Below are positions 18,401-64,000 of a stretch of DNA of 64,000 nt, piece by piece. The stretch is from an uncultured Candidatus Melainabacteria bacterium (lineage in GTDB: Bacteria > Cyanobacteriota > Vampirovibrionia > Gastranaerophilales > Gastranaerophilaceae). The position numbers were made by a program, and so were the translations under genes. The notes below the pieces were generated by a model. It did no database searches. It was not told the origin of the DNA and worked only from the letters and a program-made list of their open reading frames with translations. The stretch's first letter is position 1. Every line of letters starts with the position of its first letter. Location: NCBI GenBank assembly GCA_949927415.1, contig CATLFB010000002.1, forward strand, positions 124,001 through 188,000. The letters are read 5' to 3'.

Positions 18401-21400
18401 ATTATTATTATCGCCGACTGAATTTAATGAATCAAAGATATAATTATCACCCGCATAGTGAGCAGGGTTTTCGCCTGCGGCATTGTTGTGGATGTGCATT
18501 AATAAATCCAGTGTTGAACCGTCTTTTAGAACATAATTATTGCCGATTTTGAAATCATATCCGTTCAGATTACCATTCGGAGTTCCCTCAATATCGTTAA
18601 ACCCGAAGACGGCATTATTCATTGTCACGGTATTTCCTGTTTGAGGAATTACGGAATTGAACAAATACTCACCGTTTGTAAAGCTGATATTATTCTGTCC
18701 TGTTGTATTTAACCAATTGCTGCCGATTGTATAATTACCGTCTGCAACAGCTGTCATATTAAAAGATGCGCCATTATTTAAAGATATTTTAGCAAAATCA
18801 CTGCCTTCGGATAATGAAAGTGTTGTCTTGTCGGTATCGTAATTCAAAATTCCGCTGTAATTGTTGATTTGGGTATTTGCGCTAAAGAAATTGTTTGTAT
18901 TGTTTCTTTCGATAAAGTTTACAATACCTTCTTTTCTATCCATATCCGGATGATTAATATTGAAGATTCCTTTATATTTATCAGCGTTTCCGGTAATATT
19001 TAAGCTGCCGGAACCTGTATAACTGATAACTCCGTTGTTATCAGATAGAATATCGCCTGAAACAGAAATCGGAGCGGTAATATTCAATACATTATTATTG
19101 TTTATGGAACCGCCGATAACATCACTTGTCAAAGTTGAGGAAGATGTGTTTGAAATTGTCCAGTTAGAATTTTCAAGTCCGCCGCTGATAAGAGTTTTAC
19201 CGTCTTCGGTTGTAATATTTTGATTTGTTAGTTTGCCGCCGATAACGTAATTGCCGCTTGCTGTTATGTTTCCGTTTTCTGAGGCTTTGTCAGATGTCGA
19301 AATAGAATTTGCGATATCAAATTCCAAATTTTCATCTGAGGTGATATTCATTGTACCGTCATTGATAATATTGCCGCTGGTACCGTTTGCCAATTTTGAA
19401 GTTGAATCTTTTGTCGAATTGATATTCAGTTCACCTTTGTTGTAAATATAGGTTTCAAGGTTGCCTGAAAATTCAACATCGTTTAATGTCAATTTTCCTT
19501 CATTATGAATTGCAGAGGCTTTTGCATCTCTTGCCAACAGGTTGTTTTGGAACTTGGAATCAGAAATAACAATTTCTTTGCCTTCTGCCATGCCTGCATT
19601 TTCTCCGACAAATACGGCGGATTCATTTGCATTGAAAAGTACATTATCAACCTTAACACCGGCGTCTCGAGAGGTTACATTTATAACGGAACCGTTTTTG
19701 CCGGATGCTGAGGTAATTGTTACATCCTGAACATCAAGATTGGTTTCTGCTGACAGGTCAAACAATGCCAAACCTAAAGCATCAATTGTATCGCTCCTGT
19801 CATTTGAGCGTCCTAAAATATGGAGGGTTCCTGCAAGAGTTGATGCGATAGTGTTATCGGTTTCATCCGTCGAAACTTTATATAATGCTTTATCGTCAGT
19901 ATTCCAGGTAAATGTTCTTTCACTGTCGCGCAAATGGTTCATAATATACAATGACCTTGCTTTCAGCGATGAAGTCAGTTTTAGTGAATCCGGAGACGCT
20001 TTTGTCAAAGTATAATCATAGGCTAAATTATCATTACTGATAAAATCTTCATATTCATCATCCGTAAATTCAGCACCTGTCAATACTTTAACAGTTTCAT
20101 TTAAGATGTTTCTGTCGACGCGGTTTTCAGAAATTATATCAACATCTGTCAACTTAAATTTGCCGCTTGAACTTTGAGCGGAAATCGTATCAACTGTAAT
20201 GTTATCCCCAAATGACAAATCCAGAGTTACATCCGTACTTGTCCCAAGGTCAAGTTCGTTGAATGTCGTATTTGTTGTTGTTTTATTTTGCAAATCCAGT
20301 GATGAATTTTTAATAGCAACATTGCCTGAAAAATCAGTGTCGGCTTTTGCACTCAAAGTTACATCAGATCCATCAAGGATTGTATAATTGCCTTTATAAG
20401 AAGTTCCCGTAATATTAACATTAGAACCTTCGCCCACAGAAATAGTGTTGCCTTGAGCATTTTTTACATCTTCTGCAAGCGTAAAATCCGCGCCGTTAAA
20501 TGTAATACCGGCACCGTTTGCACCGTCGGCAAAAGAAATTTTTGAACTGTTATCGAAAGTAAATGAATCCCCTGCCGCGTTTTTGTATTCTAATTGAGCA
20601 TTCCCGCCAATATTTGCCTCAAAATCAAACTGTCCTTGAGTATTTTGAGCACCTACATTTGCAATTGTCTTACCGCCGCTTGCATTTAGTGTGCCGACAA
20701 GCCCGCTTTTGCCGCCGGTTTTATCTGATGTAAATGTTAAATCCGCATTGCCTGATTTATTAATTGTACCTTTACCAACAACATTATTTAAGGTGATATC
20801 GTAAGTATCATTATTAGTCAGTTCCAGAACGGTATCTTGAGCCAAATTATAGGTTTGAGCGTTTAAGAAACTTTTGTCTTCACCCGAAGTGTATGAAATT
20901 TTACCGTTATTGAGATTGATAGTGCCACTAAAACTTGAGTTCTGACCGTTAAGAGTTACTGTGCCTTCGCCCTGCTTTGTAAAGACTCCGGAACCAAAAG
21001 AGCCGCAAGTTATATTTGCCAGAACATCATTGGAATTATTAATTATCAATTCGGAATTTTTGTTTATTGAGTTAGTGCTTGATTTAAAATATTGATCGAC
21101 ATATTCAACAATGCCGCTGTTTACCGTAACTACGGCTGTAGCCTTTGAAACGTCACCGTTAAACGTTAATTTGCCGTCACCTGTTTTTACAATTGTTGCG
21201 CTGCTGCCGTCAAGGGCAGTAAGATTCGCGGATTTGTTTTTTTCTACCCAATCATAGGAAACATAAGAATTCTCTCCGCTAAGTGAAACTTTTGTGATAG
21301 AATCCGTACCGGAAAATGAAAGTACGGAATTGTCTTTAACGACTGTTGTTCCCAAAAATTCCCTGTTGTCACCTGACAAAACTAAATGCGCACCTTCATC

Positions 21401-23140
21401 TACGGTAATTTTACTTGACGCATTTTCAGATGCAATACCGCCGGTTGATGTCGTATCGTATGTGCTGTCATCCGTATTTTTGATAGTTAAATTCGCGCCG
21501 CTTGCAAGATAGATATCTTTACCGCTTGTGGCACTATTATTCTGGAAAACAACATTATCCTGAAGTATAATGTCTGTCGTTGTATAAATTGCACCGCCGC
21601 GGCCTGTGGTTAGTGTATTATTTTTGAAAATAGTATTTTGTATAACAGGAAGTACTCCGGTATTATAAATTGCACCGCCATCGCCTTCTCCTATTGTATT
21701 TCCGACAAAACTGCTGTTTATAATCCCATTTGTAATGGTACCATCGTTATAGATTACACCGCCCTTTGTATTTTTTGCATTGACGCTTGAACCCTCAAAT
21801 ATTGCGTCCGTAATTGATGCAATAGAAGACTTTTCATGGTTGTAAATTACGCCGCCTTCTGCCCTCGCGCTTGGAGCGTCAATATAGTTTCCTGTAAATC
21901 TGCCGCTGATGTTTTTTATACTTGCCCCGAGTCCGTTCGGGTTCCATACGGCAGTCGTACGGGTATCAAAACTGTTAGCAATAACACTGCCCCGTGCAAT
22001 TAGGTCTCCGCTTGTTTTGGTGACAATAACATGGTTGTTATTAAAAATACTGTTCTTATCACCAATATCGCTCATTTGTCCATAGTTAAATATCGCACCG
22101 CCCTCGGCTGATGAAACACCCTGTGCGTAGTTGGAATAAAAATTACCTTTAATATTCCCGACAGGAGTTCTGGCATTGACATACAAAGCCCCGCCGGTAC
22201 CTGCGCCGACACCTTCACCTTTGACGTAGTTTTCAATAAAGTCACCTGTGATATTTCCCAGTTCTGATGTTGCAAAGGTATAAATAGCACCGCCTTGAGA
22301 ACCTCTGTTATTGGAAGAACTGTTTGCACGAGCGTGGTTTCGAATAAAATCGCCGGTGATATCGCCTATTTTTGCATATTGACCGTTATCTATCGCACCG
22401 CCTTGCGAATAATTGTTACTTTCAACATAATTGCCGATAAAGTTGGCGTTTATCGCCCCGATAGAAGAATAGCTATCTGCTTTTCCGGAACCTGTTGTCT
22501 GCATAGCTCCGCCGGACGTCGCCAAAGTGCTTGTAACATAATTACCGACAAAGTTTCCTGCAATTTCTTTAATCCTTTGACCTGTATGAGTACCGGTTAT
22601 ATTGATAGCTCCGCCTGCCGGATATCCCGAATTTGTAGTAATATAATTACCGATAAAATCTCCGATAATAGAACCGTTGCCATTATCTGCCATAGCAATA
22701 CGCACAACAGCACCTTGATTTGTCGATGAATTATTTACAAAAGTTCCGGTAATTGATCCGGGGTAATTAGATGTATTATCTATTAAACCGGAAGAACCGC
22801 CTACATGATTTGCATAATTTTCATTAGACCAGTCTGCAACAGCACTGATTCCGTCTATGCTATAATTTTTTGAAGATGAGCCTGAACCGAAATGGTTCGT
22901 ATTATCTCTTTGAGGATTGGTTAAATCTATACGGTTATAATTGTAAGTTACATTATTAGTTGTAGAATTATAAACGGCCTCTTTAATAACATTGTTCGCT
23001 TCCGCACCGACCGGAGTAAAAGTATAAACGCTATCGGAACCTAAAGTATTCGCATTGGCGGCAGTAAACGGAATAAACAATGCCAAACTTACATAAAAAG
23101 CTTTGGCAAGCTTATTAAAAGAAGTTTTTTTATTAATCAA
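12443..23140 (-). CDS. Giant autotransporter adhesin, 3565 residues
   Basis: This is a type V secreted surface protein. A TTG start with GAGGATTAATT upstream gives a Sec signal peptide (residues 1-30, ending AANA). Residues 30 to about 560 are Chlamydia Pmp-like repeats rich in GGAI(Y) and FxxN. The centre is built of many autotransporter-associated beta-strand units (SGxGxLxKxGxGxLxLxGxNxxFxG), with near-identical tandem units around 16,680-17,010, and GGAIYxxxD segments recur at least four times. A helical linker (LETLQSGFYHMDRYM) leads to a C-terminal beta-barrel of about 280 residues ending near FSTGFRWAL. Oddly, about 28 lysine-rich residues follow that last strand, where autotransporters normally stop at an aromatic residue. 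Its ligand is unknown. Confidence 0.92.
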   Translation of the reverse strand: MINKKTSFNKLAKAFYVSLALFIPFTAANANTLGSDSVYTFTPVGAEANNVIKEAVYNSTTNNVTYNYNRIDLTNPQRDNTNHFGSGSSSKNYSIDGISAVADWSNENYANHVGGSSGLIDNTSNYPGSITGTFVNNSSTNQGAVVRIAMADNGNGSIIGDFIGNYITTNSGYPAGGAINITGTHTGQRIKEIAGNFVGNYVTSTLATSGGAMQTTGSGKADSYSSIGAINANFIGNYVESNNYSQGGAIDNGQYAKIGDITGDFIRNHARANSSSNNRGSQGGAIYTFATSELGNITGDFIENYVKGEGVGAGTGGALYVNARTPVGNIKGNFYSNYAQGVSSAEGGAIFNYGQMSDIGDKNSIFNNNHVIVTKTSGDLIARGSVIANSFDTRTTAVWNPNGLGASIKNISGRFTGNYIDAPSARAEGGVIYNHEKSSIASITDAIFEGSSVNAKNTKGGVIYNDGTITNGIINSSFVGNTIGEGDGGAIYNTGVLPVIQNTIFKNNTLTTGRGGAIYTTTDIILQDNVVFQNNSATSGKDIYLASGANLTIKNTDDSTYDTTSTGGIASENASSKITVDEGAHLVLSGDNREFLGTTVVKDNSVLSFSGTDSITKVSLSGENSYVSYDWVEKNKSANLTALDGSSATIVKTGDGKLTFNGDVSKATAVVTVNSGIVEYVDQYFKSSTNSINKNSELIINNSNDVLANITCGSFGSGVFTKQGEGTVTLNGQNSSFSGTINLNNGKISYTSGEDKSFLNAQTYNLAQDTVLELTNNDTYDITLNNVVGKGTINKSGNADLTFTSDKTGGKSGLVGTLNASGGKTIANVGAQNTQGQFDFEANIGGNAQLEYKNAAGDSFTFDNSSKISFADGANGAGITFNGADFTLAEDVKNAQGNTISVGEGSNVNITGTSYKGNYTILDGSDVTLSAKADTDFSGNVAIKNSSLDLQNKTTTNTTFNELDLGTSTDVTLDLSFGDNITVDTISAQSSSGKFKLTDVDIISENRVDRNILNETVKVLTGAEFTDDEYEDFISNDNLAYDYTLTKASPDSLKLTSSLKARSLYIMNHLRDSERTFTWNTDDKALYKVSTDETDNTIASTLAGTLHILGRSNDRSDTIDALGLALFDLSAETNLDVQDVTITSASGKNGSVINVTSRDAGVKVDNVLFNANESAVFVGENAGMAEGKEIVISDSKFQNNLLARDAKASAIHNEGKLTLNDVEFSGNLETYIYNKGELNINSTKDSTSKLANGTSGNIINDGTMNITSDENLEFDIANSISTSDKASENGNITASGNYVIGGKLTNQNITTEDGKTLISGGLENSNWTISNTSSSTLTSDVIGGSINNNNVLNITAPISVSGDILSDNNGVISYTGSGSLNITGNADKYKGIFNINHPDMDRKEGIVNFIERNNTNNFFSANTQINNYSGILNYDTDKTTLSLSEGSDFAKISLNNGASFNMTAVADGNYTIGSNWLNTTGQNNISFTNGEYLFNSVIPQTGNTVTMNNAVFGFNDIEGTPNGNLNGYDFKIGNNYVLKDGSTLDLLMHIHNNAAGENPAHYAGDNYIFDSLNSVGDNNNISLDLNLYADISTPRNPITDTITANSGSGILNLIKVGIRDDNGGIFTYNKPLRVIYGNNNLQIATENNIQVLSWATNVYKYKFNSATSLGVEGIQDEYSHTADSISVEYGGFSSSETLRDLNRFNINLSADNQGGNRGFSFVENQDYHIYRDLDETTKGHFVLMGKSEKTPNGGVISGAFNELRFESTTETDRFFEKDGKYYYTEYIKGIENAVPHEVDVHMETIDGKEYYVIDSQEFTQGRENGSMFMLVNDTQFDMTDITLKDTLRAGVKDIKDGSAIYANNATAYARLGNVNFENNRVIAGNGGAIANILSDEFVLNGSRITDNSASGDGGSIYNTSKGMILEGVRADNNNAGGRGGVIYTNSDLTIRNSNFGTTALNTQGNGSNDIYIDGDAVVTFNTDNIPATEDTEAVNGDSFIKSGIAGSGNFVKDGNAKLTLSGVNNELTGKFEAVHGSVDYIQTVADGFVSGSVKLAKDTTLNYSNALSDHIQNLSGEGTLNKTAAGDINLTGDNKLFTGALNINESNLNYTQNTENGFVNGSVKLAQNTTLNYSNAQNDHIQNLTGEGTVNKTGVGDISLTGDNSKFSGYANINEGSLTYVYNPESSDKYFSGNTVLDNAALNVDVLSGQTEIKNISSKNANSGSLVKKGSGKAVLKGDNSGFTGKTDINAGTLAYSNENNKFVRGDVEIRENAELEITTAKYDNLINKITGLGKFIKKGNSKLNLHNDNSEFNGKVDVNSGTLAYSDSTAGAEFFGNETTYNVDGEFDIDNKKDIQIKDLSGSGKVVKTESGTLNLLGDNSKYSGSIKVDAGNLSFTHDDANEYISGSTEISKDGALNYTASKESILEKVSGNGTLNYSGSEKLTFDANKNSFTGKANVEGALLDVIGKNTSTADFAMNVKSGKLNYTAASGANILIDNKFQFAESNNSTMQFNNAGFTLKDEIANSNGNNVIFNNTTIAFTNSNYTQGKYSVIDSVIDLTQDGHKTFNREFNNLTVENTGLKLDVDLLLRDGAKDAKIDTLKVNNSDAGAIKVALTQFHINDRKSDDGLGKTYSLNVLDGLTFDEDKSIDRWATQAYTYDVKTKGTDLELTAVKASDGNSLGEMNRLDGIRGFNFNYTTEDDPTYIITSNLGVTNSGKFAVLGDKDRGTVVTGDKKYSMFAVTQATELTVSDLTIKEAVAIDRGGSVVFANNENAKILLDKVNINSSVSAKDGGAISNIKSGEFNIAGGEIKGNASFGNGGAIYTSANMHILETNFANNTDKNGKNDIYISGPFTNVNYEIAAGHSGNILSGLGGNGVFNKTGEGTLNLSGRNNGFFGTLNILNGSEVIFTQTDSTDSYISGITNIAESGKLTLNNDKSDIIIGSIRAQTGTSVDITGGKNVTLSGDNSGFNGDLNIKKGSAAFFSHSANDKYINGTTNISQDASLRLHNTNDFILNDKITGSGKLVKSGDGRLIVSGTANLNGELAITQGELAFIQNASLGELDTLSMYNASTLNLQNTALVRNNDGTFTTNPNPASLENIYVKNIVLNGNVNLKLDVDLEEIKADKIGAEFVHGDGRFIINQDGINVLSDSLLENTSVEIAYGALAHDERIALNPNVKSVMGPIQKYAVSYADGYLDFTRMGGYTPTYEAVNPAVMATPVAAQIGGYLTQLETLQSGFYHMDRYMKYARSARFAAEQANHYAITDTPAYSRSPLPETSQAMWVKPYVSFEKVNLQGGPNVSNTTYGSLYGGDSDLYDLKHGFKGVISTFVGYNGSRQSYSNVSMNQNGGVLGVTGTLYKNNFFTGLTVSTGASSGDADTIYGHDDFTMLTAGIASKTGYNWEIKEGKFIIQPTLFLGYTFVNTFDFRNKANVSIDSDPLHAIQIVPGVKFIGNLKNNTQVYASVDLVTSILGDTNVKANDVTLPQLSVKPYVQYGVGIQKMWSDRFTGYFQTMIRNGGRNGIAFSTGFRWALGKSAKKEKNVVPIKRTVIKEKKSSSTIKL
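16680..17010 (-). repeat. Tandem near-identical units inside the autotransporter passenger
   Basis: Two consecutive units of about 210 bases encode almost the same text, including LNYSNA(L/Q)(S/N)DHIQNL and GxVKLAxxTTLNYSN. They are the most recent-looking duplication in the gene and a likely site of length variation by recombination. Confidence 0.65.
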
Positions 23141-51496: not shown

Positions 51497-53410
51497 TTAT
51501 ATACTTTTAATTTTTTGTTTATAAATTTTCTTTTTTATTTTGTATCGCTGTTTTGTTTTTCCTGAAACGAAATTTAAAAAGATTTTATACTTCCAGTATT
51601 TCAGCAAATTTTTTCTGTAATCTTTGAGATTGGAAAGTGAAAAATTAATATAATTATTCTGGTTAGCCGAATTCATTCTCAATAAAATCTCTTCGTAAAA
51701 AGGTGATTTTCTGGCGTATTCCCACCAGATTTCAGAGTAGTTTTCGCTCGGACAAAACCATGGTTTTGTGGTTCCTGCAAAGTGCATAATTTTTGGATTT
51801 TTTTCATCTTTTTTATATTGTTCATAAAAAGTTTTTGGCATAAAATCCAGGATTGTTTTGTAATAAAAATTTGCTACCGGAAAGTTCCACGATGTATCTA
51901 TGTATTTAATGCCATTTTTGAAAAACGCATTAAGCCCGTCCTGCTCTAAGATTCTGAACTGGGTTTTGGATACCAAATCAAGCATTTTAGATGAAATATT
52001 ATTATCGTTAAAATATTTTATATTTATGAGCATCACTCCGGTATTAAAATATTTATAATTATCTTCTAATTTCAGCTTTTCGCACAGGTATTTTCCCCAG
52101 TTTAAGCTGTCGTTGCGGTTATTTACAAATGCTCCCATTATTAAATCTTTGCAAGCCGCAAGCGGATAATTTGTTATGTCTTCGCTGTATAAAACAGACG
52201 GATCTTTCAAAAATAACAAATCAACATCTGTAAATAATACCTTTTCGAAATTTTTTAAAATCAATGGTGAAGTCAGTCTAAAATAGCATTCAAGATTGTA
52301 GTTTGGCGGAAATTTTAAATTATATCCTTTTAAAATCGGTGTCGGATTGACAAACCTTAATGAAATATTTTCGCATTCGATTTGCTTTTTGAGAATGTTT
52401 TTGTTTCTTTCTGTGATGCTTCTTTCAAAAATTATGATGTCATAATTTTGTTCCGGATTAACAACTTTTTTCAACGATTCGAGGCATGTTGAAAGATAAG
52501 GAACATATTCATTGCTCGAACTCATTGCGATAACATTATTATTATTATCGAATGCCGGTTTTAAATCTGAGTTTGCTTCTTCGGTGTTTAAAATAAAAGA
52601 TGAATATAATTCTTTGATGCATTTTGATTTGTCTTTGTGTTTTTTGAAAGCATAGAGAGATAAAATAAATTCTCCCATATACCCCAGCACCCTTGCTGCT
52701 TTTTCAGAATAAGTGACAACATTAATCTGTTTTTTGAATTCTTCTAATATTGAAAATAAAAATTCGGAATATTCAAAAAATTCTTCCTTTTTCATAATAA
52801 ACATATTATAAAAATATCTGTAAGGTCCTTTATTTAATTCTTTTATTTCTTCAGCATACTGCGGATAAATTTGCGAAATCAATTTCATACAATTTTCGTA
52901 ATCTGACTCATTAGAACCATGACAATTTTTTACAAAATCTTCTTTTCCATTTTTGCAATTCAAATATTTTTCATTGGCTTTTTTTATAAAAATAATATCT
53001 GTGCCAAGAACGGTTTCTTTAATATGCAAGTCATCAAGACCGGTTTCAGAAAAATAATCCTCTGTAATATAATCAAACTTGAAGGCAGAATATCCATACT
53101 CGAAAGTTTTATTCTGAACTGTCGGGCTGTATTTTTCATTAAAAATAAAATGCCTTCTGTAGTGCATGAAACCAATATAATCCGGATTGCCGATTTTGTC
53201 GTAATTTTTCCATGCCCAATACTGCGCAGAAAGTTCTGCGTAATAAGGGTTTTCTGCAGAAATATTCTCGCCCGTGTCATCTCCAATCATCCCATCAAAA
53301 GCTTCCGCTGCAATCGCGCGTCCTGTCTGAATCGGTTTTATAATATCCGTTTCGATGATTTTGTGCTTGTCTTTGTATGTTACAAAAATTCTAATATCTT
53401 TCTTTTCCAT
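51497..53410 (-). CDS. DUF4422-GT8 glycosyltransferase with basic C-terminal tail
   Basis: A 637-residue cytoplasmic glycosyltransferase. Residues 1 to about 250 are a DUF4422 domain (FVTYKDKHK, GDDTGENIS, QYWAWKNYD, GFMHYRRHF). Residues 290-575 are a GT8 retaining glycosyltransferase with the metal-binding FTDVDLLFL (DxD) and FNTGVMLIN, ending near IMHFAGTTKPW. The last 45 residues form a basic tail, KYWKYKIFLNFVSGKTKQRY, shared with three neighbours. Unlike them, it has no homopolymer tract before the tail, so its tail is fixed. The donor and acceptor sugars are unknown. It is the last gene of the operon; AAAAGGAG precedes the ATG. Confidence 0.85.
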   Translation of the reverse strand: MEKKDIRIFVTYKDKHKIIETDIIKPIQTGRAIAAEAFDGMIGDDTGENISAENPYYAELSAQYWAWKNYDKIGNPDYIGFMHYRRHFIFNEKYSPTVQNKTFEYGYSAFKFDYITEDYFSETGLDDLHIKETVLGTDIIFIKKANEKYLNCKNGKEDFVKNCHGSNESDYENCMKLISQIYPQYAEEIKELNKGPYRYFYNMFIMKKEEFFEYSEFLFSILEEFKKQINVVTYSEKAARVLGYMGEFILSLYAFKKHKDKSKCIKELYSSFILNTEEANSDLKPAFDNNNNVIAMSSSNEYVPYLSTCLESLKKVVNPEQNYDIIIFERSITERNKNILKKQIECENISLRFVNPTPILKGYNLKFPPNYNLECYFRLTSPLILKNFEKVLFTDVDLLFLKDPSVLYSEDITNYPLAACKDLIMGAFVNNRNDSLNWGKYLCEKLKLEDNYKYFNTGVMLINIKYFNDNNISSKMLDLVSKTQFRILEQDGLNAFFKNGIKYIDTSWNFPVANFYYKTILDFMPKTFYEQYKKDEKNPKIMHFAGTTKPWFCPSENYSEIWWEYARKSPFYEEILLRMNSANQNNYINFSLSNLKDYRKNLLKYWKYKIFLNFVSGKTKQRYKIKKKIYKQKIKSI

Positions 53411-53508: not shown

Positions 53509-55368
53509 CTATCTTCGTCCTTTGATTTTGGCTTTGTAAATACGTTTTTTGTGATAATATCTTGTGCGGGTTTCTTTGGAACCGAAGTTTTGCAAGATTT
53601 TGTATTTCCAGTATTTGGCGTAATCGCTGATTTGACGCGTGTTTCCGGGGGGGGGGGGCATCGGTATTGCACTCATGGCCATCCTTTTCAGAATTTCTTC
53701 ATAAAAAGGTGTTTTCCGTGCATATATCCACCAATGTTCGCTTTTTTCTTTTTCCGGATTGCTCCAGGGTTTCAGAATTCCGTTGTAATGTATAATTTCA
53801 GGCGATTCTTCCGCTTTTTTTACTTCTTCTGTTGAAAAATGCGGTATGTATTTCTTGAATTCTTCATATTCCACCATGGGTGTGTAATTCCATTTGAAAT
53901 CGAGTTCTTTATAATCGTCTTCAAATACTATATTAAACGGGTCCTGATCAAGAAATTCGTAATTGTTTTTCAGTAACAAATCCTTTATTTTATCACCTTT
54001 TTCTTTTGTAAATAAATTCAGGTTGTAAACCATTATGCCGGCGTTAAAATAATCAAACAAATTTTTTATTTTTAATTTTTCTTTTAAATATTTACTTTGT
54101 TTTTTAGAAGTTACCAGGCACTGCATTATGTAATCTTTTGCCGCTGCAATCGGTTTGTCCAGAGTCATTTTGTGCAATTCAACCAAATCCGAAAGGATTA
54201 AGGTATCAGAATCTATGAATATCAAATTATTTTCTGATGTAAACAATTGCGGAATAAGCATCCTGAAATAGGTTTCGATTGTAATGTGCGGCAATACTTT
54301 GAAATTGTAGTTGAAAAAATTCATATTTATAAATTCAAGCGAGAGGTTTTCAGTGGTGTAATTTTCCAACAGAATGTTTTTATTTCTTTTTGAAATATCA
54401 CGCGTCAGAATATAAACCTTGTATTTATAAGCGCAGTTGAGGTGTTCTTTCAGTGATTCCAGCGCAGTTGAAAGGTATGGTGTATAAAAATCTGACGATG
54501 ACATTACAATGTTTATAGTGTTTGAATCGCACTTGACATGTGAGATTTCTTCAACATTTTTGAGGAATGTAATCGGCGTTTCTTTAATTTTGCATTTCTT
54601 TTCTTCGCGTTTTTTCTCTATGAAAATTGTTAACAGCCTTTCGGACAGATAACCCAGTGTTCTTATTGCGTCATTACAGTAAAGCGACATATCTATCTGT
54701 TTTTCAAGTTCCGACAAAATCGTAAATAAGAAGTTGTTATATTCAAAGAAAATCTCTTTTTTCATTACAAACATGTTATACCAGTGGTTGTATTCCAAAT
54801 CCGGTAATTTATTTATAACGCTCCGGTATTCCGGGAAGAATTTAACAACTGTTTCAAGCATTAAATCATAATCTGCGCTTTGCAAATGGCAGTTTTCCGT
54901 ATAAGCGTTTCTTGTCAAATCTTTTTTGTTTTTGAGAAACTCAATTTTTCTAAGCATTATTTTGCTGCAAACTATTATGTCATTGCCGGATACAAAATTC
55001 GCTATATCTTTGTCGTTGAGGGATATTTTGCGGACGTAATCTTCATTGAAATTTTCAAATTCTACACATCCGATAATATTAGGACTCAAGTGCTCATCGT
55101 TAAAGATGAAATGCCGTCTGTAATGCATGAATCCGACATAATCCGGATTACCGATTTTATCGTAATTTTTCCAAACCCAATATTGGGCGCTGATTTCAGA
55201 ATACTTCGGATTTTTTTCAGAAATATTCTCGCCCGTATCGTCACCAATCATCCCCTCGAAAGCTTCCGCCGCAATTGCACGACCTGTCTGAATCGGTTTT
55301 ATAATATCGGTTTCGATGATTTTGTGTTTGTCTTTGTAAGTTACAAAAATTTTAATACTATTTTCCAC
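53509..55368 (-). CDS. DUF4422-GT8 glycosyltransferase, phase-variable tail, in frame
   Basis: A 619-residue paralog of the neighbour at 51497. The first 110 residues are almost the same (TYKDKHKIIETDIIKPIQTG; GDDTGENIS). The GT8 domain has FIDSDTLIL (DxD) and FNAGIMVYN, ending IIHYNGILKPW. A run of twelve C on the coding strand (53647-53658) encodes four prolines at residues 571-574. It is followed by the shared tail, KYWKYKILQNFGSKETRTRY, to residue 619. At twelve C the tail is in frame; a change of one base would replace it. The start is GTG with AAGGAG upstream. Confidence 0.85.
   Translation of the reverse strand: MENSIKIFVTYKDKHKIIETDIIKPIQTGRAIAAEAFEGMIGDDTGENISEKNPKYSEISAQYWVWKNYDKIGNPDYVGFMHYRRHFIFNDEHLSPNIIGCVEFENFNEDYVRKISLNDKDIANFVSGNDIIVCSKIMLRKIEFLKNKKDLTRNAYTENCHLQSADYDLMLETVVKFFPEYRSVINKLPDLEYNHWYNMFVMKKEIFFEYNNFLFTILSELEKQIDMSLYCNDAIRTLGYLSERLLTIFIEKKREEKKCKIKETPITFLKNVEEISHVKCDSNTINIVMSSSDFYTPYLSTALESLKEHLNCAYKYKVYILTRDISKRNKNILLENYTTENLSLEFINMNFFNYNFKVLPHITIETYFRMLIPQLFTSENNLIFIDSDTLILSDLVELHKMTLDKPIAAAKDYIMQCLVTSKKQSKYLKEKLKIKNLFDYFNAGIMVYNLNLFTKEKGDKIKDLLLKNNYEFLDQDPFNIVFEDDYKELDFKWNYTPMVEYEEFKKYIPHFSTEEVKKAEESPEIIHYNGILKPWSNPEKEKSEHWWIYARKTPFYEEILKRMAMSAIPMPPPPGNTRQISDYAKYWKYKILQNFGSKETRTRYYHKKRIYKAKIKGRR
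53647..53658 (-). repeat. Homopolymer tract C12 (coding strand), in-frame state
   Basis: Twelve G on the plus strand inside the glycosyltransferase gene, 45 codons before its end. Tracts of this length slip readily during replication. As written, the downstream tail is in frame. Confidence 0.9.
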
Positions 55369-55448: not shown

Positions 55449-55566
55449 CTACTTTAATAAAATTTTTGCGTTTCTTATTTTTTGTTTATAAATACGTTTT
55501 TTGCAGCGATATCTGCTTTTTGTTTTTCCTGATACAAAATTTGCTAAGAATTTGTACTTCCAATAC
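55449..55566 (-). pseudogene. Out-of-frame C-terminal tail of the GT8 gene
   Basis: This stretch continues the minus-strand GT8 gene in the shifted frame and encodes KTKSRYRCKKRIYKQKIR and a TAG at 55449-55451. It is closely related at the DNA level to the tail of the 863-residue gene (56590-56720). It is silent only because of the present tract length. Confidence 0.75.
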
Positions 55567-56577
55567 TTAAGCACATTTTTGCGATAATGTACCAAATCCC
55601 TTATCAATTCTACATTTGCGGGGGAGGGGGCACGCCGACGCCCCTTTCAGGCACATTCTACGGATAATCTCTTCGTAGAACGGAGATTTTCTCGCAATAA
55701 CCCACCATTCGGCCGCAAAATCTTCGGTCGGGTCAAACCACGGCTTTTCGCGGTCGGCAAAGTGCAAAATTTTCGGCTCTTTTACTGCCAAATATTTTGC
55801 TCTGATAAAATCTGACATGTTTTCCAGATATTTTGCATCTTTCATGTGTTTTTGCAAAGGCGGATAATTCCATTCATTCGGAAGCCAGTAACATTTGTCA
55901 TTCAACAGTTCGTTCAATGCATCCTGATCGACAATGTTGTAGTTGAAATTCGAAACCATTTCCATCAACTTTATTGAACAGTCGTGCGCATTAAAGTAGT
56001 CAATATTCATAATTATGACGCCTGCCTGAAAATATTTGTCGTGATCTTTGAGTTTCAAAGTTTCATACATATATTTCACGGCTTTTTTACCGAAAATGCC
56101 CAGAAGCGCTGACATTAAGCACTCTTCCGTTGCAGCAATCGCACAGTCTTTTATATCAATATTGAAAAGATTTTTGACATCTTCCAGAATCAACAAGTCT
56201 GAATCTAAAAACAGGATTTTGCTGTATTTTTTCATAAAAAGAGGGATTACAAGTCTGAAGTAAGTTTCGATTGTGATATGGCCGGGCGCGTAAAGATTCA
56301 AATCTTTAAAAATTTCTTTCACATTTACAAATCTGATTGAGAAATTTGGCCTGTCGCAGATTTCCGAAAGCTGGTTTTTGTTGAATTCTGACATGTCTTT
56401 TGTGAAAACAACGCAATCATAGTTATAATTATCATCGCTTTTTTCAATAATACTCTGGAGCGTAATCCCCAGATACGGCGCGAAATAATCCGATGATGCA
56501 AATGTTATCGGAATAACATTTTTGTCAAAAACAATATCTAATTCTTTGATTTTGTTTAAATTCTCTAGCTTCATCAT
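55567..56577 (-). CDS. GT8 glycosyltransferase, tail out of frame
   Basis: A GT8 enzyme without a DUF4422 domain; 336 residues as written. The catalytic part is intact: FASSDYFAPYLGITLQSI at the start, FLDSDLLIL (DxD), FQAGVIIMN and ILHFADREKPW. After RRMCLKGASACPL the reading frame crosses CCCCCTCCCCC and ends in an unrelated stretch (RKCRIDKGFG ...). In another frame the DNA encodes the family tail, YRKNVLKYWKYKFLANFV, ending at 55449. Deleting one base in the tract joins the two and yields 375 residues without a stop. The start is at 56577 or the adjacent ATG at 56574, after AGGGG. It is eight bases behind the 863-residue gene. Confidence 0.82.
   Translation of the reverse strand: MMKLENLNKIKELDIVFDKNVIPITFASSDYFAPYLGITLQSIIEKSDDNYNYDCVVFTKDMSEFNKNQLSEICDRPNFSIRFVNVKEIFKDLNLYAPGHITIETYFRLVIPLFMKKYSKILFLDSDLLILEDVKNLFNIDIKDCAIAATEECLMSALLGIFGKKAVKYMYETLKLKDHDKYFQAGVIIMNIDYFNAHDCSIKLMEMVSNFNYNIVDQDALNELLNDKCYWLPNEWNYPPLQKHMKDAKYLENMSDFIRAKYLAVKEPKILHFADREKPWFDPTEDFAAEWWVIARKSPFYEEIIRRMCLKGASACPLPRKCRIDKGFGTLSQKCA
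55620..55630 (-). repeat. Interrupted 11-base C tract (CCCCCTCCCCC), out-of-frame state
   Basis: The plus strand reads GGGGGAGGGGG. Total length is 11, like the neighbouring tracts, with one central substitution. One base less restores the tail. Confidence 0.8.
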
Positions 56578-56585
56578 GCCCCTTT

Positions 56586-59177
56586 CTAATTTATAAAATT
56601 TTTAACATTTCTGACTTTTTGCTTATACAACCGTTTTTTAAGACGATATCTGCTTTTTGTTTTTCCTGTTACGAAATTTGTTAAGATTTTGTACTTCCAA
56701 TATTTAAGCACATTCTTGCGGTAAAGTGCAACATCCCTTAATAATTCGGCATTTTTTACATTGTAATCCTCTACAACCCTTGTCATTTCTGCGATTGCTG
56801 GGGGGGGGGGCAGCGCTGATTCCTCATCCGGATTAACTTTGCCTATTATCTCATTATTAAAAGGAGATTTTCCCATGTTATCACGCAGTTCGTCCGTAAA
56901 GTATTTAACAAGATTGTTTACCTCGGTATACAAACAACTTTTATCCGGCTTTGTATTTAAAACATTTCTTATATGATTTATTTCGATTTCCCTACGGTTT
57001 AGCTTTTGCAAAGCTTCATCCGCAAGACTCATCAAAGCCTCGTTGGTCGTTCCCTGAACGTCAAGCGAAAGGTCATATTCCTGATTCAGATGATTCTTAA
57101 GCCATTGCAGCGAAAATTCTTTATTTTTGTTCAGAATACTCTCTACTTCTGCCCAGTTTATATCTTCAAAAAGGTCGTCGCGGTTATCGAGATTTTCGTC
57201 GAAATTCACAAACCTGTTTTCAAGATGAAGCATTTTGAACAACGATTCAAACCGCTCTTTGCCGCGCAAAACATTCTTCATGCAGATGAAAGGTTTGTTG
57301 AAAATTATCGCAAGGCAGCAGCCATGGAATGAATCCGCAATAAAGAGTTTGCAATTTTTGATGTAATAAAGCCAATCTTCGACGCTGATTTGGAAATTCT
57401 GGCTGATATCGATAATTTCGTTTGCCCTGTAACGTTTTTTGATATATTCCAGATGGTCTTTTTTGCCATGAAGATTGTCGAGTACGTAGTAGCAGATAAA
57501 ATCTTTTTCATCTCTTGTTGAATCCGAAATAATGTTTTCCCACAAACTTTTGTCCGGCAAAAACACCGGATCAAGAACATGCGTGGCATCGACGTCAAAT
57601 TCTTCTTTGCAAATTGTGACGCCCGAATCTTCGCGAACGGAAATTCCCTGAAATCTGTTCAACAACACTCTTACCAGCTGTTTGTTGAGATAATTTCCTT
57701 CGTATGTGTTGCAGGCAAAGCTTGCCGCATAAGCAAACTTCGGCTTGTTATAATCAGCAAACGCAAGAAAGCAGTTGTTGTCGTAATCCCTGAATTCCGG
57801 CCAATTGCGAAGTTGTTCAACGCCGTATCTCCAAACCTGGTCTGAACCGACAATAAATTTATTCACCCTGTTATTAAGTCTTTTCAAATCGGTTTTGTCA
57901 TGGCAGAGTTCAGTGAGGTTGAAATATTTTGCGGCGAATTTTTCGGAAATTCCGCCCAAATAACTTCTGTCATAGAACCATTTCGGAATCCAGTTGATTG
58001 TTTTGACTGCAAATCCGAGGCTTTTAACGGTTTCCTGAAGCGCATAGGCTGTGCACATTGCGCCGTAGTTGTTGCACCACCAGAAGTTTAAAATTGCACA
58101 GTATTTGTAGGAATTTTCGTAAGTTTCGTTGAATGATTTTTCCGGAATTTGTTTGAAAAATTCTTCACGGAAGGCATTTTCGCGGCTCGGATGAAAAAGC
58201 GGGTAATTATAATGAGTCAATTGCGAATCCATTTTTTCAAGCGACACTATGCGCGGTGAAATTTTTTCAAGGTAATCTTTGCCTTTTTGGGTGTGGGTGA
58301 AAACAACCGAAACGCCCATGTGATTGTATAATTCGGGTCTATATACATTTATACCCCAGAAATCCCCGAGGGTTATGTCAGACACTCTTTCGGGTTTTGC
58401 AAATTTGCATTCGCCGCAGGATTTGCGCAAATAAAGATTGTCCCCGAATCCGTCCATGAATTTGCTATCTTTAATCTTGTTGTCGGGTGTTGTTACGATT
58501 AAATGCGTGCAGGTCCATCCCTCTTCTTTGCTTCGAAATTCTACTTTGCAAATATTTTCATCACCGAAATTTTCTTTTAAATATTTCTGCCAGACTTTGC
58601 TGTTTGGAACCCCGTGGCAAACAACGTCGGCAGTGAAAAGCTTCTCATAATCTTTTTGCAAAAATCCGTAAAGTCCGGCAATTTGGCAGGGTGTTCCTGT
58701 GAAGAAAACAAATTTGTCATCTTCAAGAAGATTTTTAACATCGCGATAAATATTTCCGATTTTGCTTTGAATATATTTGCTTCCGCGAAGTTTTGCCAAA
58801 TCCTCTTTGTTATCGACGATTATATGTTCAACGTTCCAATCGTTATCGAACGCGGCGCCGCAAACATAGCCGCCTTTTTCCAGAATTTTTTCTGCAAGAA
58901 GCGTAAATATTCCGCCGGATGAACTTTTCATTTGAATTTCTTCATTGGCTCGTGCAGCGTAGCATTCGGCTTGTTTTTCATGGAATTTTGCATTTAAAAC
59001 AGGACAAACTTTTTTGCACATACCGCAATTTGTGCATTTTTCATGGTCAACCTGCGGATACAGAAAGCCTTCTTTATCTTCTGCCATGGTAATCGCGCCG
59101 GCAGGACAAATATTTTGGCATGATGCGCAGCCGCTGCATTGATTATATTCAATTATGTCTAGATATTTGTCGTACAA
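56586..59177 (-). CDS. Ferredoxin-FrhB/FdhB-polysaccharide pyruvyltransferase fusion with phase-variable tail
   Basis: An 863-residue multidomain protein. Residues 8-60 bind two 4Fe-4S clusters (C14, C17, C20, C24; C48, C51, C54, C58). About 70-355 is a coenzyme F420 hydrogenase/dehydrogenase beta-subunit domain (SSSGGIFTLLAE, FTGTPCQIAGL, SCGECKFAKPERVSDITLGDFWG). About 365-690 is a polysaccharide pyruvyltransferase domain (NYGAMCTAYALQETV, IVGSDQVWR, ADSFHGCCLAIIF). Eleven C (56800-56810) encode prolines at 790-793, then the shared tail KYWKYKILTNFVTGKTKSRY follows. It probably adds pyruvate or a related acid to a surface glycan with an electron-transfer step. The TTG start has GAGGAATTATC in front. 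Confidence 0.85.
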   Translation of the reverse strand: MYDKYLDIIEYNQCSGCASCQNICPAGAITMAEDKEGFLYPQVDHEKCTNCGMCKKVCPVLNAKFHEKQAECYAARANEEIQMKSSSGGIFTLLAEKILEKGGYVCGAAFDNDWNVEHIIVDNKEDLAKLRGSKYIQSKIGNIYRDVKNLLEDDKFVFFTGTPCQIAGLYGFLQKDYEKLFTADVVCHGVPNSKVWQKYLKENFGDENICKVEFRSKEEGWTCTHLIVTTPDNKIKDSKFMDGFGDNLYLRKSCGECKFAKPERVSDITLGDFWGINVYRPELYNHMGVSVVFTHTQKGKDYLEKISPRIVSLEKMDSQLTHYNYPLFHPSRENAFREEFFKQIPEKSFNETYENSYKYCAILNFWWCNNYGAMCTAYALQETVKSLGFAVKTINWIPKWFYDRSYLGGISEKFAAKYFNLTELCHDKTDLKRLNNRVNKFIVGSDQVWRYGVEQLRNWPEFRDYDNNCFLAFADYNKPKFAYAASFACNTYEGNYLNKQLVRVLLNRFQGISVREDSGVTICKEEFDVDATHVLDPVFLPDKSLWENIISDSTRDEKDFICYYVLDNLHGKKDHLEYIKKRYRANEIIDISQNFQISVEDWLYYIKNCKLFIADSFHGCCLAIIFNKPFICMKNVLRGKERFESLFKMLHLENRFVNFDENLDNRDDLFEDINWAEVESILNKNKEFSLQWLKNHLNQEYDLSLDVQGTTNEALMSLADEALQKLNRREIEINHIRNVLNTKPDKSCLYTEVNNLVKYFTDELRDNMGKSPFNNEIIGKVNPDEESALPPPPAIAEMTRVVEDYNVKNAELLRDVALYRKNVLKYWKYKILTNFVTGKTKSRYRLKKRLYKQKVRNVKNFIN
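56800..56810 (-). repeat. Homopolymer tract C11 (coding strand), in-frame state
   Basis: Eleven G on the plus strand, read as CTG followed by CCC CCC CCC CCA. It is 70 codons before the end of the gene; the tail is in frame as written. Confidence 0.9.
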
Positions 59178-59228
59178 GATAATTCCTCCAGCGGATTAAT
59201 TCCGTTTTCTATAAAATATGACGGTGAT

Positions 59229-59912
59229 TTACGCGACCAATTGATGCCGGTTTTCTTCACCACAGCCGGGACGCCTGCAATAAGAAAGCCCCCCCCCCCT
59301 TGACTGAAATGCCCTTGTTACAAGGCTTTTAGCGCCAACAATGGAGTTTTCCGGAATGATTGCGTTTTTTAAAATCAGACAGCTTTCGCCTATCCAACAG
59401 TGATTTTGGATTTGAACCTGAGACGTTCTGGCGTTTTGAATTTGTTGAGTGTTGATATCAAAGACGGCGTGTCCGTCAGCGCCTCTTATGGTTGTAAAAC
59501 CTGCGAACATGCAGTCTTCTCCGATTAGAACATCGGATTCTTCAACCAGCATTATGTTGCAGTTATGCATTGTTGTATTTTTTCCGATAGTAAGCTTTTG
59601 ATTTTTTCCGTAAAATGCAAAAATTTTGTTTTTTGTAAAATTTGTCGTGGAGCCTATTTCAACATACGCACCATCGTTATGTATTTCGGGATAATTGCCG
59701 ATTTTTATTATGGAACCTTCTGAACAAAACGGCTTAAAGATTCTTACAATATTGTTTGACCCGTATATTTCAATACTCAGCCCTTCAATTTTTTCATCTG
59801 GCTGTAATTCTCTTTCGCAGCCATTTTCTTCCACAACTATAATTCTGTTGTTGGCGCCTTTTATATCGTAGGGCTTAGTGCGCTTTTTCATAAATCTTTT
59901 TAACAGTGACAT
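59229..59912 (-). CDS. Hexapeptide-repeat acetyltransferase, frameshifted at a G11 tract
   Basis: A left-handed beta-helix acyltransferase that O- or N-acetylates sugars. The hexapeptide ladder runs from about IKIGNYPEIHNDGAYVEIGS to IGESCLILKNAIIPENSIVGAKSLVTRAF, with the catalytic region near HNCNIML and GADGHAVFD. As written, the chain then enters RGGGLSYCRRPGC and stops at 59229. In another frame the DNA reads FLIAGVPAVVKKTGINWSRK, the normal end of this family. Ten instead of eleven G would restore it, giving 250 residues and a stop at 59159 that overlaps the next gene's start. The start is the ATG at 59912 (GGAGAAG upstream), overlapping the flavoprotein gene by 13 bases. Confidence 0.82.
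   Translation of the reverse strand: MSLLKRFMKKRTKPYDIKGANNRIIVVEENGCERELQPDEKIEGLSIEIYGSNNIVRIFKPFCSEGSIIKIGNYPEIHNDGAYVEIGSTTNFTKNKIFAFYGKNQKLTIGKNTTMHNCNIMLVEESDVLIGEDCMFAGFTTIRGADGHAVFDINTQQIQNARTSQVQIQNHCWIGESCLILKNAIIPENSIVGAKSLVTRAFQSRGGGLSYCRRPGCGEENRHQLVA
59289..59299 (-). repeat. Homopolymer tract G11 (coding strand), out-of-frame state
   Basis: Eleven C on the plus strand, at the junction between the beta-helix and the C-terminal AGVPA segment of the acetyltransferase. One base less restores the family C-terminus. Confidence 0.9.
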
Positions 59913-61183
59913 ATCTTCTCCATAGCTATTTTCATTCCGTCTGCAAACGCCTGATGCGTCCACATGTATTCCCATTTGCCAAATCGGCCGATGCTTTCTA
60001 TTCCGACAGATTCGAGATAATCTAAAACAATCTCGCGGTTTTTGTAAATGTTTTTGTCAAAAATTACATTCGCATACTTTTCAAATCGAATATCTTTTAC
60101 GACAATTTCGTCTTCTGTGAAAAGCCCCATTGCGGTTAACTTTTCAATCGTGTTTTTCAAAACAGCATCAGCCTCAGGAATTTCAGCCCTGTTTGAGAAG
60201 AAAATTTCTGCCTGAAGCGAACTGCAGCCTTCCGGTACATTATCAGGAGACTTCAAACTTGGTGAATATACGCGGCTTGAGAGGATATCTTCATCATAAA
60301 TATAGAACCACAGATGTTTTGCGACATCAGGCCTTTTAAATCCAAGTGAGACCATATATCCGGAGGTGTGCATCAAATTTTCGCCCGCGCGCTTGATATC
60401 AAGCGGAATTCCGTCAATCATTTTCACGATTTCAGGCAGCGGAAGAGTCGAAATCAGGCGTGAATATTTGGTTTCGGTGCCGTCTTTAAATGTTACAGTT
60501 TTGGCTGTCGGATTGATTTTCACGGCTTCTTTGTTGAATCTGATATCCAGATCTTCGCGGCAGTCGTTCAGAATCGAGCGGAAACCGCCTTTTTTCGGGT
60601 ATTTCATGTGCGAAGTGTAGTAGAAATTTTTGTCCTGAACTTCGAAGGCGCCTTTCAGAACCTCATCCAAATCGGGTTTGTGCATTCTGTTTCCGACCCA
60701 TTTTGTCTCAAGTTCTTTCGGCTCCACTCCCCAGTATTTGCGCGTGTAGCGGAAGGGAAAATTCTCTGCAAAATAATCGCCGTATTGTACTCTAAGCCAG
60801 TCTTCGTAGTTTTCGAGTTCTTCAAACGGTTTTTTCGGACGGTTGATGAAGCCTTTTATGATTTCTACTTTTTCATCCGCCGGCAAAGGCGCAAGATTGT
60901 TTTGCGCAGGGTGTTTCAGCCAGAATCCTTTGTAGAAGTTGCTTGAAACACTGGGGTGCGCAAATGTGGGTGACGATTTTTCGAAGATATTTCTGATGTA
61001 ATCGTCGGGGGCGAAGGTGAAGTGAACAAACTTGTCAAAACGAAAGCCGTTTATGGTGAAGTTTGCGCACAATCCGCCCCAATCGCCGTTACGTTCATAG
61101 ATTACGGGTTTTTCGCCATTTTTTTCAAGATGATAGCCCGCAGAAATCCCTGCTATTCCGCTTCCTAAAATTACAGTTTCCAT
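59900..61183 (-). CDS. FAD-dependent oxidoreductase, UDP-galactopyranose mutase/protoporphyrinogen oxidase-like
   Basis: A flavoprotein of 427 residues. The dinucleotide-binding motif VILGSGIAGISAGYHLEKNG opens the chain, followed by ERNGDWGGLCANF and, at the C-terminus, SIGRFGKWEYMWTHQAFADGMKIA, which closes the FAD site. The general layout is shared by UDP-galactopyranose mutases and amine oxidases. In the glycan operon a sugar-nucleotide mutase or oxidase is the likely role, but the substrate cannot be read from the sequence. It is 16 bases downstream of the CDP-glucose dehydratase gene and overlaps the acetyltransferase gene. Confidence 0.8.
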   Translation of the reverse strand: METVILGSGIAGISAGYHLEKNGEKPVIYERNGDWGGLCANFTINGFRFDKFVHFTFAPDDYIRNIFEKSSPTFAHPSVSSNFYKGFWLKHPAQNNLAPLPADEKVEIIKGFINRPKKPFEELENYEDWLRVQYGDYFAENFPFRYTRKYWGVEPKELETKWVGNRMHKPDLDEVLKGAFEVQDKNFYYTSHMKYPKKGGFRSILNDCREDLDIRFNKEAVKINPTAKTVTFKDGTETKYSRLISTLPLPEIVKMIDGIPLDIKRAGENLMHTSGYMVSLGFKRPDVAKHLWFYIYDEDILSSRVYSPSLKSPDNVPEGCSSLQAEIFFSNRAEIPEADAVLKNTIEKLTAMGLFTEDEIVVKDIRFEKYANVIFDKNIYKNREIVLDYLESVGIESIGRFGKWEYMWTHQAFADGMKIAMEKICHC

Positions 61184-61199
61184 AGCTTCTCCGATAATT

Positions 61200-62324
61200 T
61201 TATTTCGCAGCTAATGCAGGAGTTTTCTCTGAAGTTTCCCAAAGGTAGCCTTTGTCTGTGTGAGCTTGAATTTGTTTTTTGCAATATTCGAACATATCGT
61301 CGTTGTGGAGCGCTTCTTTGTACCAATCTACAGTGAATTCGATTGCTTCGTAGAATGAAAGCTGGGCTTTCCAATCGAGCATTCTGTAAGCTTTTGTGAC
61401 ATCCAGGCTCAGAAGAGTATTTTCATGAACCATATTCGGGCTTGAAGCGTCAACTACTTTACCTTGACCGTAGTATTTAACGAGATATTCAACAACATCC
61501 CAAACGGTTTTGTTGCACTCAATCGGAGGGCCGAAGTTGAATCCTTCCGAGTATTTTACCGGCTCTTCCATAAGTTTTTGGCCGACACGAAGATATCCGC
61601 TCAAAGGTTCAAGAACATGTTCCCACGGACGGGTTGCTTTCGGGCTTCTGATTTCGATATCTTTGCCTTCTTCGATGAATCTTATGCAGTCCGGAATAAG
61701 TCTGTTATCAGACCAATCGCCGCCGCCGATTACGTTTCCGGCACGGACTGATGCGATTGCTTTTCCGTGTTTTGCGTAGTCTTTTGTGTTGAAGTATGAA
61801 TTTCTGTATGAAGAAATCAACAATTCAGCGCAGCCTTTTGAAGATGAATACGGGTCATAACCGCCCATTCTGTCGGTTTCTTTGTAGCCCCAGATTTGTT
61901 CAACGTTTTCGTAGCATTTGTCTGATGTAATCATTACGACTGTTTTTATGCAATCGAATTTTCTGACTGCTTCAAGAACGTTCAATGAACCCATTACGTT
62001 TGTTTCGTAAGTGAATTTCGGATTGTCATAAGCTGTTCTGACGAGAGCTTGAGCTGCTAAGTGGAAAACTACTTCCGGCTGATATTTGCGGATTGTTTCT
62101 TCCAATTTTTCGCTGTCGCGCACGTCTCCTTTAACATCTGCAAACAAATGTTTTTCAAGGTGAGATGCTTTGTAGTTGCCGCGCTGTGAATACGGTTCCA
62201 ACGCATATCCGACAACGTTTGCGCCAAGCATTGTAAGCCAGATTGAAAGCCAGCTTCCTTTAAAACCGGTGTGGCCTGTAACTAAAACTGTTTTGCCTTT
62301 GTATACGTTATTAAAATTAGACAT
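61200..62324 (-). CDS. rfbG: CDP-glucose 4,6-dehydratase
   Basis: A short-chain dehydrogenase of 374 residues that converts CDP-glucose to CDP-4-keto-6-deoxyglucose with bound NAD. The nucleotide loop is TGHTGFKGSWLSIWL, a phrase typical of RfbG. The catalytic Tyr-Lys pair is in YDPYSSSKGCAE, and MITSDKCYEN supplies the catalytic Ser/Thr-Asp region. The SVRAGNVIGGGDWSDNRLIPD segment is another family signature. It overlaps the upstream epimerase gene by eight bases and follows rfbF in pathway order. Confidence 0.93.
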   Translation of the reverse strand: MSNFNNVYKGKTVLVTGHTGFKGSWLSIWLTMLGANVVGYALEPYSQRGNYKASHLEKHLFADVKGDVRDSEKLEETIRKYQPEVVFHLAAQALVRTAYDNPKFTYETNVMGSLNVLEAVRKFDCIKTVVMITSDKCYENVEQIWGYKETDRMGGYDPYSSSKGCAELLISSYRNSYFNTKDYAKHGKAIASVRAGNVIGGGDWSDNRLIPDCIRFIEEGKDIEIRSPKATRPWEHVLEPLSGYLRVGQKLMEEPVKYSEGFNFGPPIECNKTVWDVVEYLVKYYGQGKVVDASSPNMVHENTLLSLDVTKAYRMLDWKAQLSFYEAIEFTVDWYKEALHNDDMFEYCKKQIQAHTDKGYLWETSEKTPALAAK

Positions 62325-63235: not shown

Positions 63236-64000
63236 TTATACCTTTCCTGCCAAGCTTACGTATGCATTCTGTTTTTCCCAAACTTTCCACGGTGCATCTC
63301 CGGATTCCCACATTTCGTCAAGTTCGATTTTGTCTCTCAATGTGTCCATCGGACGCCAGAATCCGTGGTGTTTGTATGCAACAAGTCCGCCATGGTTTGC
63401 GATTGTTTCAAGTGGTCTTCTTTCAAAGATTTCTTTGTCGTTGCCGGCTTCGATGTAGTTCATAACTTCCGGTTCGCAAACGAAGAATCCGCCGTTAATC
63501 CATGCGCCGTCACCTTTTGGTTTTTCCTGGAATGAAGTGATTGTTCCGTCCTGTGCAATATTCAGCGCGCCAAAACGGCCTGATGGCTGAACTGATGTCA
63601 TTGTCATGATTTTGCCGGATTTTTTGTGGAAGTTTACAAGATCTGTAATGTTTACATTCGAAACGCCGTCGCCGTATGTGAGAAGGAATGGTTCGTTGCC
63701 GATATATTCCTGTGCTTTTTTAATTCGGGCACCGGTCATAGCATTCTGGCCCGTATAAAGCATTGTAACTTTCCATGGTTCCGTGCGCATTTTGTGAAGT
63801 TCGATTGTGTTGTAGCGCATATCAATTGTCAAATCAGAATATCTCTGATAATAGTGCACAAAATAATCTTTAATAATATGAGATTTGTACCCTGTGAGGA
63901 TAACGAAATCGTTAAATCCGTAATGAGAATAAATCTTCATAATATGCCAGAGGATTGGATAGCCTCCGATTTCGACCATAGGTTTCGGTTTTGAAACAGT
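63236..64000 (-). CDS. rfbF: Glucose-1-phosphate cytidylyltransferase, 5' end outside window
   Basis: The enzyme makes CDP-glucose from glucose-1-phosphate and CTP, the first step of the CDP-deoxysugar branch. The frame is open to the window end, reading TVSKPKPMVEIGGYPILWHI, which corresponds to about residue 18 onward. The N-terminal GGxGTR loop is therefore outside, and the internal ATG at 63979 is not the start. LTYGDGVSNVN holds the metal-binding aspartate, and FQEKPKGDGAWINGGFFV and YKHHGFWRPMDT are family hallmarks. It probably heads or continues an operon that extends upstream. Confidence 0.95.
   Translation of the reverse strand, partial: TVSKPKPMVEIGGYPILWHIMKIYSHYGFNDFVILTGYKSHIIKDYFVHYYQRYSDLTIDMRYNTIELHKMRTEPWKVTMLYTGQNAMTGARIKKAQEYIGNEPFLLTYGDGVSNVNITDLVNFHKKSGKIMTMTSVQPSGRFGALNIAQDGTITSFQEKPKGDGAWINGGFFVCEPEVMNYIEAGNDKEIFERRPLETIANHGGLVAYKHHGFWRPMDTLRDKIELDEMWESGDAPWKVWEKQNAYVSLAGKV

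Follow-up and report, generated by a model that had tools for sequence, protein, structure and literature searches.

The window analyzed here, a 64,000-nucleotide (nt) stretch of contig CATLFB010000002.1 from an uncultured Candidatus Melainabacteria bacterium, contains a polysaccharide operon in which the gene for a hexapeptide O-acetyltransferase passes, as assembled, into an unrelated frame at a run of eleven G residues (G11). The most probable interpretation, to which we assign a rough probability of 0.78, is that this gene is a contingency locus, subject to translational phase variation by slipped-strand mispairing and at present OFF. Mispairing during replication would add or remove G residues in the run, which lies in the terminal loop of the enzyme. 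With 10 or 13 G the last coil and the C-terminus (IAGxPA...INW) would be made and the enzyme would be whole (ON); with 11 G, as assembled, or 12, a short unrelated tail would follow and the enzyme would be inactive or impaired (OFF). Together with the runs found in two downstream genes, such slippage would leave a population with mixed surface glycans.

The G11 run and the conserved C-terminal ending

The features of the gene are as follows (window positions; (-) denotes the minus strand; aa, amino acids).

59229..59912 (-): hexapeptide (left-handed β-helix) O-acetyltransferase with G11 as assembled, 227 aa, OFF; Pfam PF00132 (3.2e-9), profile match to OatWY/NeuO
59289..59299 (-): G11 run, proposed slippage site, read directly from the sequence
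59159..59288 (-): the enzyme's conserved C-terminus in another frame (FLIAGVPAVVKKTGINW...), reached with 10 or 13 G

The run is exactly eleven G long on the minus strand and lies inside the open reading frame (ORF) that begins with the ATG at 59912. The 227-residue product ends ...TRAFQSRGGGLSYCRRPGCGEENRHQLVA at a stop codon at 59231-59229, the unrelated tail being RGGGLSYCRRPGCGEENRHQLVA. Direct reading of the sequence bears out the stop at 59229 proposed in an earlier, sequence-only reading of this DNA, which quoted the end of the chain as “RGGGLSYCRRPGC”; this is the right tail, but its last ten residues (GEENRHQLVA) had been omitted. That reading also held that 10 G would give the expected acetyltransferase ending and a stop at 59159. 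This is indeed what is found: with 10 G the protein reads ...TRAFQSRGGG(G)FLIAGVPAVVKKTGINWSRKSPSYFIENGINPLEELSCTTNI and terminates at 59161-59159, and 13 G give the same result. With 9 or 12 G it ends soon after the run (...AFLLQASRLW, followed by a stop). The gene contains no further stop or frameshift, and both flanks of the run are intact and conserved. Across the window there are 13 matches to G8, against 0.24 in shuffled sequences.

Relatives of the enzyme were taken from genomes of the family Gastranaerophilaceae, where the best ones in other species are approximately 30-41% identical; the window acetyltransferase alone, used as a query against the named genomes, found no relative. Twenty-nine relatives were examined, 28 of them without a run and the remaining one (L054) with a run of its own. 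All 28 run-less proteins end in a form of ...VTKKFxEENxxIAGxPAKxxKxNINWxR, that is, (I/L)AGxPA...IxW, and none ends like the G11 tail, the ending in close relatives that the earlier reading had named as contrary evidence. The conserved ending FLIAGVPAVVKKTGINWSR is found in the frame given by 10 or 13 G. A model of the 28 C-termini scores this out-of-frame segment at 22.7 bits (7.7e-6), compared with 9.7 bits for the best of 2000 shuffles, which supports the assignment of the normal hexapeptide acetyltransferase ending to the G10 frame; the G11 tail gives no match to the same model. The C-terminal (I)AGxPAxxxxxxIxW ending is absent from the G11 form and present in the frame of 10 or 13 G. Judged from its sequence, the assembled acetyltransferase gene is off, and the ending normal for the family is in the n = 1 mod 3 frame. 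Two marks of a poly-G contingency locus are found here, namely a run of at least 9 G in a reading frame beyond what is expected by chance, and the restoration of the conserved ending by a change of one unit (n = 10).

Profile comparison reveals that the nearest solved structures are OatWY (PDB 2wlc, 1.6e-49) and then NeuO (PDB 3jqy, 1.1e-46), both of which are polysialic acid O-acetyltransferases and both of which end like the run-less relatives. His148 and Trp173 of the window protein align with NeuO His147 and Trp171, which are catalytically important (PMC3046976). The two residues are invariant in an alignment of 22 sequences; both are intact and precede the run. NeuO of E. coli K1 shares with the window enzyme its fold, family and catalytic His and Trp; it is phase-variable (PMC3046976), its random ON/OFF O-acetylation of a polysaccharide arises through repeat slippage (PMC3046976, PMC13001214), and the modification guards against capsule phage (PMC13001214). 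Switching of an O-acetyltransferase with this fold has a direct precedent in NeuO. The two enzymes differ in that the NeuO switch is a heptanucleotide repeat at the 5′-end of a prophage-borne gene, whereas the window gene has its G run near the 3′-end and lies inside a polysaccharide operon. The meningococcal OatWY, the closest solved structure by profile, carries the C-terminal ending IAGSPAKIVKENIVWGR; its organism and acceptor differ, and the solved sequence is without a run in the terminal loop.

Recurrence in homologous acetyltransferases

A pattern search of 383 family genomes for runs with AGxPA or GNHxW codons no more than 30 nt beyond them revealed seven true acetyltransferases with runs, the window enzyme included, in different genera. 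The run occupies the same terminal loop in five of them: the window enzyme (G11), L138 (G9, 41 nt from the start of its contig), L139 (G10), L140 (G9) and L141 (G10). In the other two, L149 (G10) and L150/L054 (G13), it immediately precedes the IGNHVW turn. In all seven, the conserved continuation is in a different frame, and the count of missing or extra G varies among them. A homolog from genome G087 (L046) possesses the same loop without a run and is in frame. Three further pattern matches (L143, L144 and L151) lack an upstream acetyltransferase and were set aside as coincidental.

Phase variation is also supported by the two additional runs of the window operon, described below, and by runs in the glycan loci of other species, which are in mixed states. 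In the multi-run locus L173 (genome G022, of another genus), an acetyltransferase whose G13 is out of frame is flanked by an Acyl_transf_3 gene with G14 in frame (1312-1325) and by a 314-aa ORF whose G15, too, is out of frame (8466-8480). The acetyltransferase of L176 adjoins a DegT aminotransferase whose G10 is out of frame, and that of L174 a methyltransferase whose G9 is in frame.

The polysaccharide operon and its other runs

The operon lies on the minus strand and is composed, in order, of glucose-1-phosphate cytidylyltransferase, epimerase, CDP-glucose 4,6-dehydratase, FAD-dependent oxidoreductase and acetyltransferase genes, followed 3′ by an FrhB/polysaccharide pyruvyl transferase fusion, a GT8 gene and two genes for DUF4422-GT8 proteins. 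Its family matches point to the production of CDP-glucose-derived sugars and to a surface-related role, and the substrate of the acetyltransferase would presumably be a surface polysaccharide. Elsewhere in the window (12443-23140, minus strand) is a 3565-aa ORF with abundant repeated motifs, which resembles a very large autotransporter-type surface protein.

63236..63979 (-): glucose-1-phosphate cytidylyltransferase, 5′ part at the window edge; TIGR02623, 2.2e-104
61200..62324 (-): CDP-glucose 4,6-dehydratase; TIGR02622, 2e-144
59900..61183 (-): FAD-dependent oxidoreductase, upstream of the acetyltransferase and overlapping its start by 13 nt
59185..59189 (-): ribosome-binding site (GGAGG) of the fusion gene, spaced 7 nt from its TTG, from the sequence
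56586..59177 (-): FrhB/FdhB fused to polysaccharide pyruvyl transferase, 863 aa, starting with TTG
56800..56810 (-): coding-strand C11 run (PPPP), in frame as assembled, before the basic C-terminal tail of the fusion
55567..56577 (-): GT8 glycosyltransferase, its tail severed by a frameshift
55619..55632 (-): interrupted run TGCCCCCTCCCCCG (C5TC5) at the GT8 frameshift site
55458..55610 (-): detached GT8 tail (YRKNVLKYWKYKFLANF...) in another frame, with 75% identity to the fusion's tail
53509..55368 (-): DUF4422-GT8 protein, 619 aa
53647..53658 (-): coding-strand C12 run (PPPP), in frame as assembled, before the tail of the 619-aa protein
51497..53410 (-): second DUF4422-GT8 protein, with a similar tail and without a run

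The sequence-only reading had the G10 stop overlapping the TTG of the fusion gene. The reading frames do overlap by 19 nt, the G10 frame extending 18 nt beyond the first base of the TTG at 59177, but the stop codon is not on the start codon. The stop of the G11 form precedes the same TTG by 51 nt. Since this TTG has a good GGAGG site of its own, the fusion gene is translatable alone, and coupling is compatible with the geometry but not required by it. It is possible, from this arrangement, that switching of the acetyltransferase could alter the level of the downstream protein through translational coupling.

The basic tail shared by these proteins (YWKYKIL..GKTKxRY..KK) occurs in four copies in the genome, all at the polysaccharide locus. 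A change of length at the C11 or the C12 run would remove the tail only, and the interrupted C5TC5 of the GT8 gene is perhaps a former run that is now locked OFF. Tail-bearing glycosyltransferases of other species (L113, L115, L116, L117 and L118) have no run of at least 7 nearby; another, in L114, has two runs.

These tails bear upon the question of whether the acetyltransferase itself undergoes C-terminal switching, with both forms stable and working and differing in activity, partner or substrate. The available part of a study of Helicobacter canadensis (PMC2823697) describes poly-G runs of at least 10 near 3′-ends that alter the C-terminus alone; the cases described in that part include no acetyltransferase. 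For the tail genes, switching of the C-terminus as proposed there fits better than ON/OFF. The acetyltransferase run is likewise late, following the catalytic residues and coinciding with the last coil, but the part that is lost contains the C-terminal motif that the family conserves most strongly, and the monomers of NeuO meet and are joined through their C-terminal sections (PMC3046976). Because the end that is lost is conserved in the enzyme, ON/OFF variation is the likelier account here, and we regard C-terminal switching of the acetyltransferase as unlikely.

Runs across the genome and what they imply

Runs of at least 9 G number 64 in the genome to which the window belongs (G000), against approximately 1.6 expected from composition, and runs of at least 11 G number 58, against 0.06 expected; 38 of the 66 runs of at least 8 G are exactly 12 long. 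Named relatives of one of its pilins come mostly from assemblies of Candidatus Gastranaerophilales. Among genomes of the family the number of runs of at least 9 G ranges from 0 to 128, and within one genus from 0 (G005) to 64 (G000), a spread that suggests repeated gain and loss of the run system. The longest run, G18 at G000:C1:388501-388518 (L072:9002-9019), is situated between two genes and belongs neither to a pilin leader nor to a reading frame. Run-bearing elements of one and the same kind are present at contig ends (C5:6-17, C7:6-17, and near base 100 of C16 and C18); with several contigs starting at such similar elements, these repeats probably break the assembly.

Approximately half of the runs in the genome are followed, 25-250 nt further along the same strand, by the prepilin motif (FTLAEVLITLGIIG) of a type IV pilin-like gene. 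They are contained in a short conserved leader frame, ATGAAA...GAATTTCA-G12-CACCCGAAAATAA, an example of which is MKKQTITGFAGGGG-TRK-stop.

G000 stretches L063-L111: pilin-leader runs, e.g., L102:3020-3031, L086:3011-3022, L066:2959-2970

Twenty-two of the 26 G12 leaders would read into the prepilin only at 11 or 14 G and are out of frame at 12, and two leaders whose runs differ from 12 in length are in frame. In genome G034, of another genus (loci L157-L171), 14 leaders with G10 are out of frame, three with G11 are in frame and one with G11 is out of frame. From the leader phases in these two genomes a general OFF bias is likely. We tentatively propose, with a little less than even confidence, a lineage-wide system of poly-G switching in this non-photosynthetic lineage related to cyanobacteria. 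In such a system, dozens of type IV pilin-like genes, and surface enzymes as well, would normally be OFF, most of them a single G away from ON, and individual slippage events would switch on single pilins or glycan modifications, resulting in combined antigenic variation of pili and glycans.

Several points weigh against phase variation of the acetyltransferase. The comparison is of assembled genomes, one per species, and showed no length variation within a species; none of the seven run-bearing acetyltransferases is in frame, an outcome with a probability of approximately 0.06 under random frames, which suggests a bias to OFF among them; and the OFF product may keep some activity because the run is near the 3′-end. 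G-run lengths in draft assemblies may be off by one, although the existence and recurrence of the runs are independent of this.

The last point leads to the reading in which the run really measures G10 (or G13), the assembled G11 reflects an error of sequencing or assembly and the gene is intact in most cells. Short reads are error-prone at G runs, and the annotated run length in Bifidobacterium breve was not the commonest in culture (PMC9187656). Against this, the presence of the run and its recurrence in six homologs and two neighboring genes do not depend on exact length. The homologs are off by differing amounts and other runs of the genome are in frame; there is therefore no uniform length error, and a fixed systematic one was rejected since different genes miss different numbers of G. 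Error at this run is considered decidedly unlikely.

Programmed slippage of the RNA polymerase or ribosome, by which some full-length enzyme would be made from a gene fixed out of frame, would account for the frame of all seven run-bearing acetyltransferases and of nearly all pilin leaders, and for the single length, one off frame, shared by 22 of the 26 G12 leaders. Yet the length of the run and the number of missing G vary among the homologs, and leaders of one design in genome G034 exist as both G10 (off) and G11 (on), which looks like switching; we consider such recoding quite improbable. That the gene is a decaying pseudogene, its frameshift an ordinary loss of function, is very improbable: the gene and its six homologs are out of frame, and the neighboring GT8 gene has been severed from its tail at an interrupted run that would no longer slip easily, but the acetyltransferase has no other lesion, its sequence is conserved on both sides of the run, and eleven G by chance are very unlikely.

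The best-known cases of repeat-driven phase variation are in pathogens such as Neisseria, Haemophilus, Campylobacter and Helicobacter. A literature search for Gastranaerophilales together with phase variation found no report, and the switch proposed for the window acetyltransferase would be a known kind of system in a lineage for which none was found. The Campylobacter and Neisseria phasome studies (PMC6321876, PMC5953494) are similar in being genome-wide catalogs of repeat-driven phase variation with poly-G prominent; they concern another phylum, and in the present genome many runs precede pilin-like genes. A precedent from the gut is the sortase-pilus switch of Bifidobacterium breve, a gut commensal with coding runs of 10-12 G, in which OFF lengths are in the majority and slippage was shown by deep sequencing (PMC9187656). 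There the switch acts on Gram-positive sortase pili, in contrast to the glycan enzyme and type IV pilin-like genes of the window genome.

Genes of this kind look broken in draft genomes, though only the length of a run is off, which is a caution for annotation. If the phase-variation reading is true, a largely uncultured gut lineage uses phase variation on a large scale: surface modification and many pili could probably flip on and off at random, the benefit presumably being variation in the face of phages or host antibodies, and one genome per species would hide mixed surface states relevant to phages, host antibodies and colonization.

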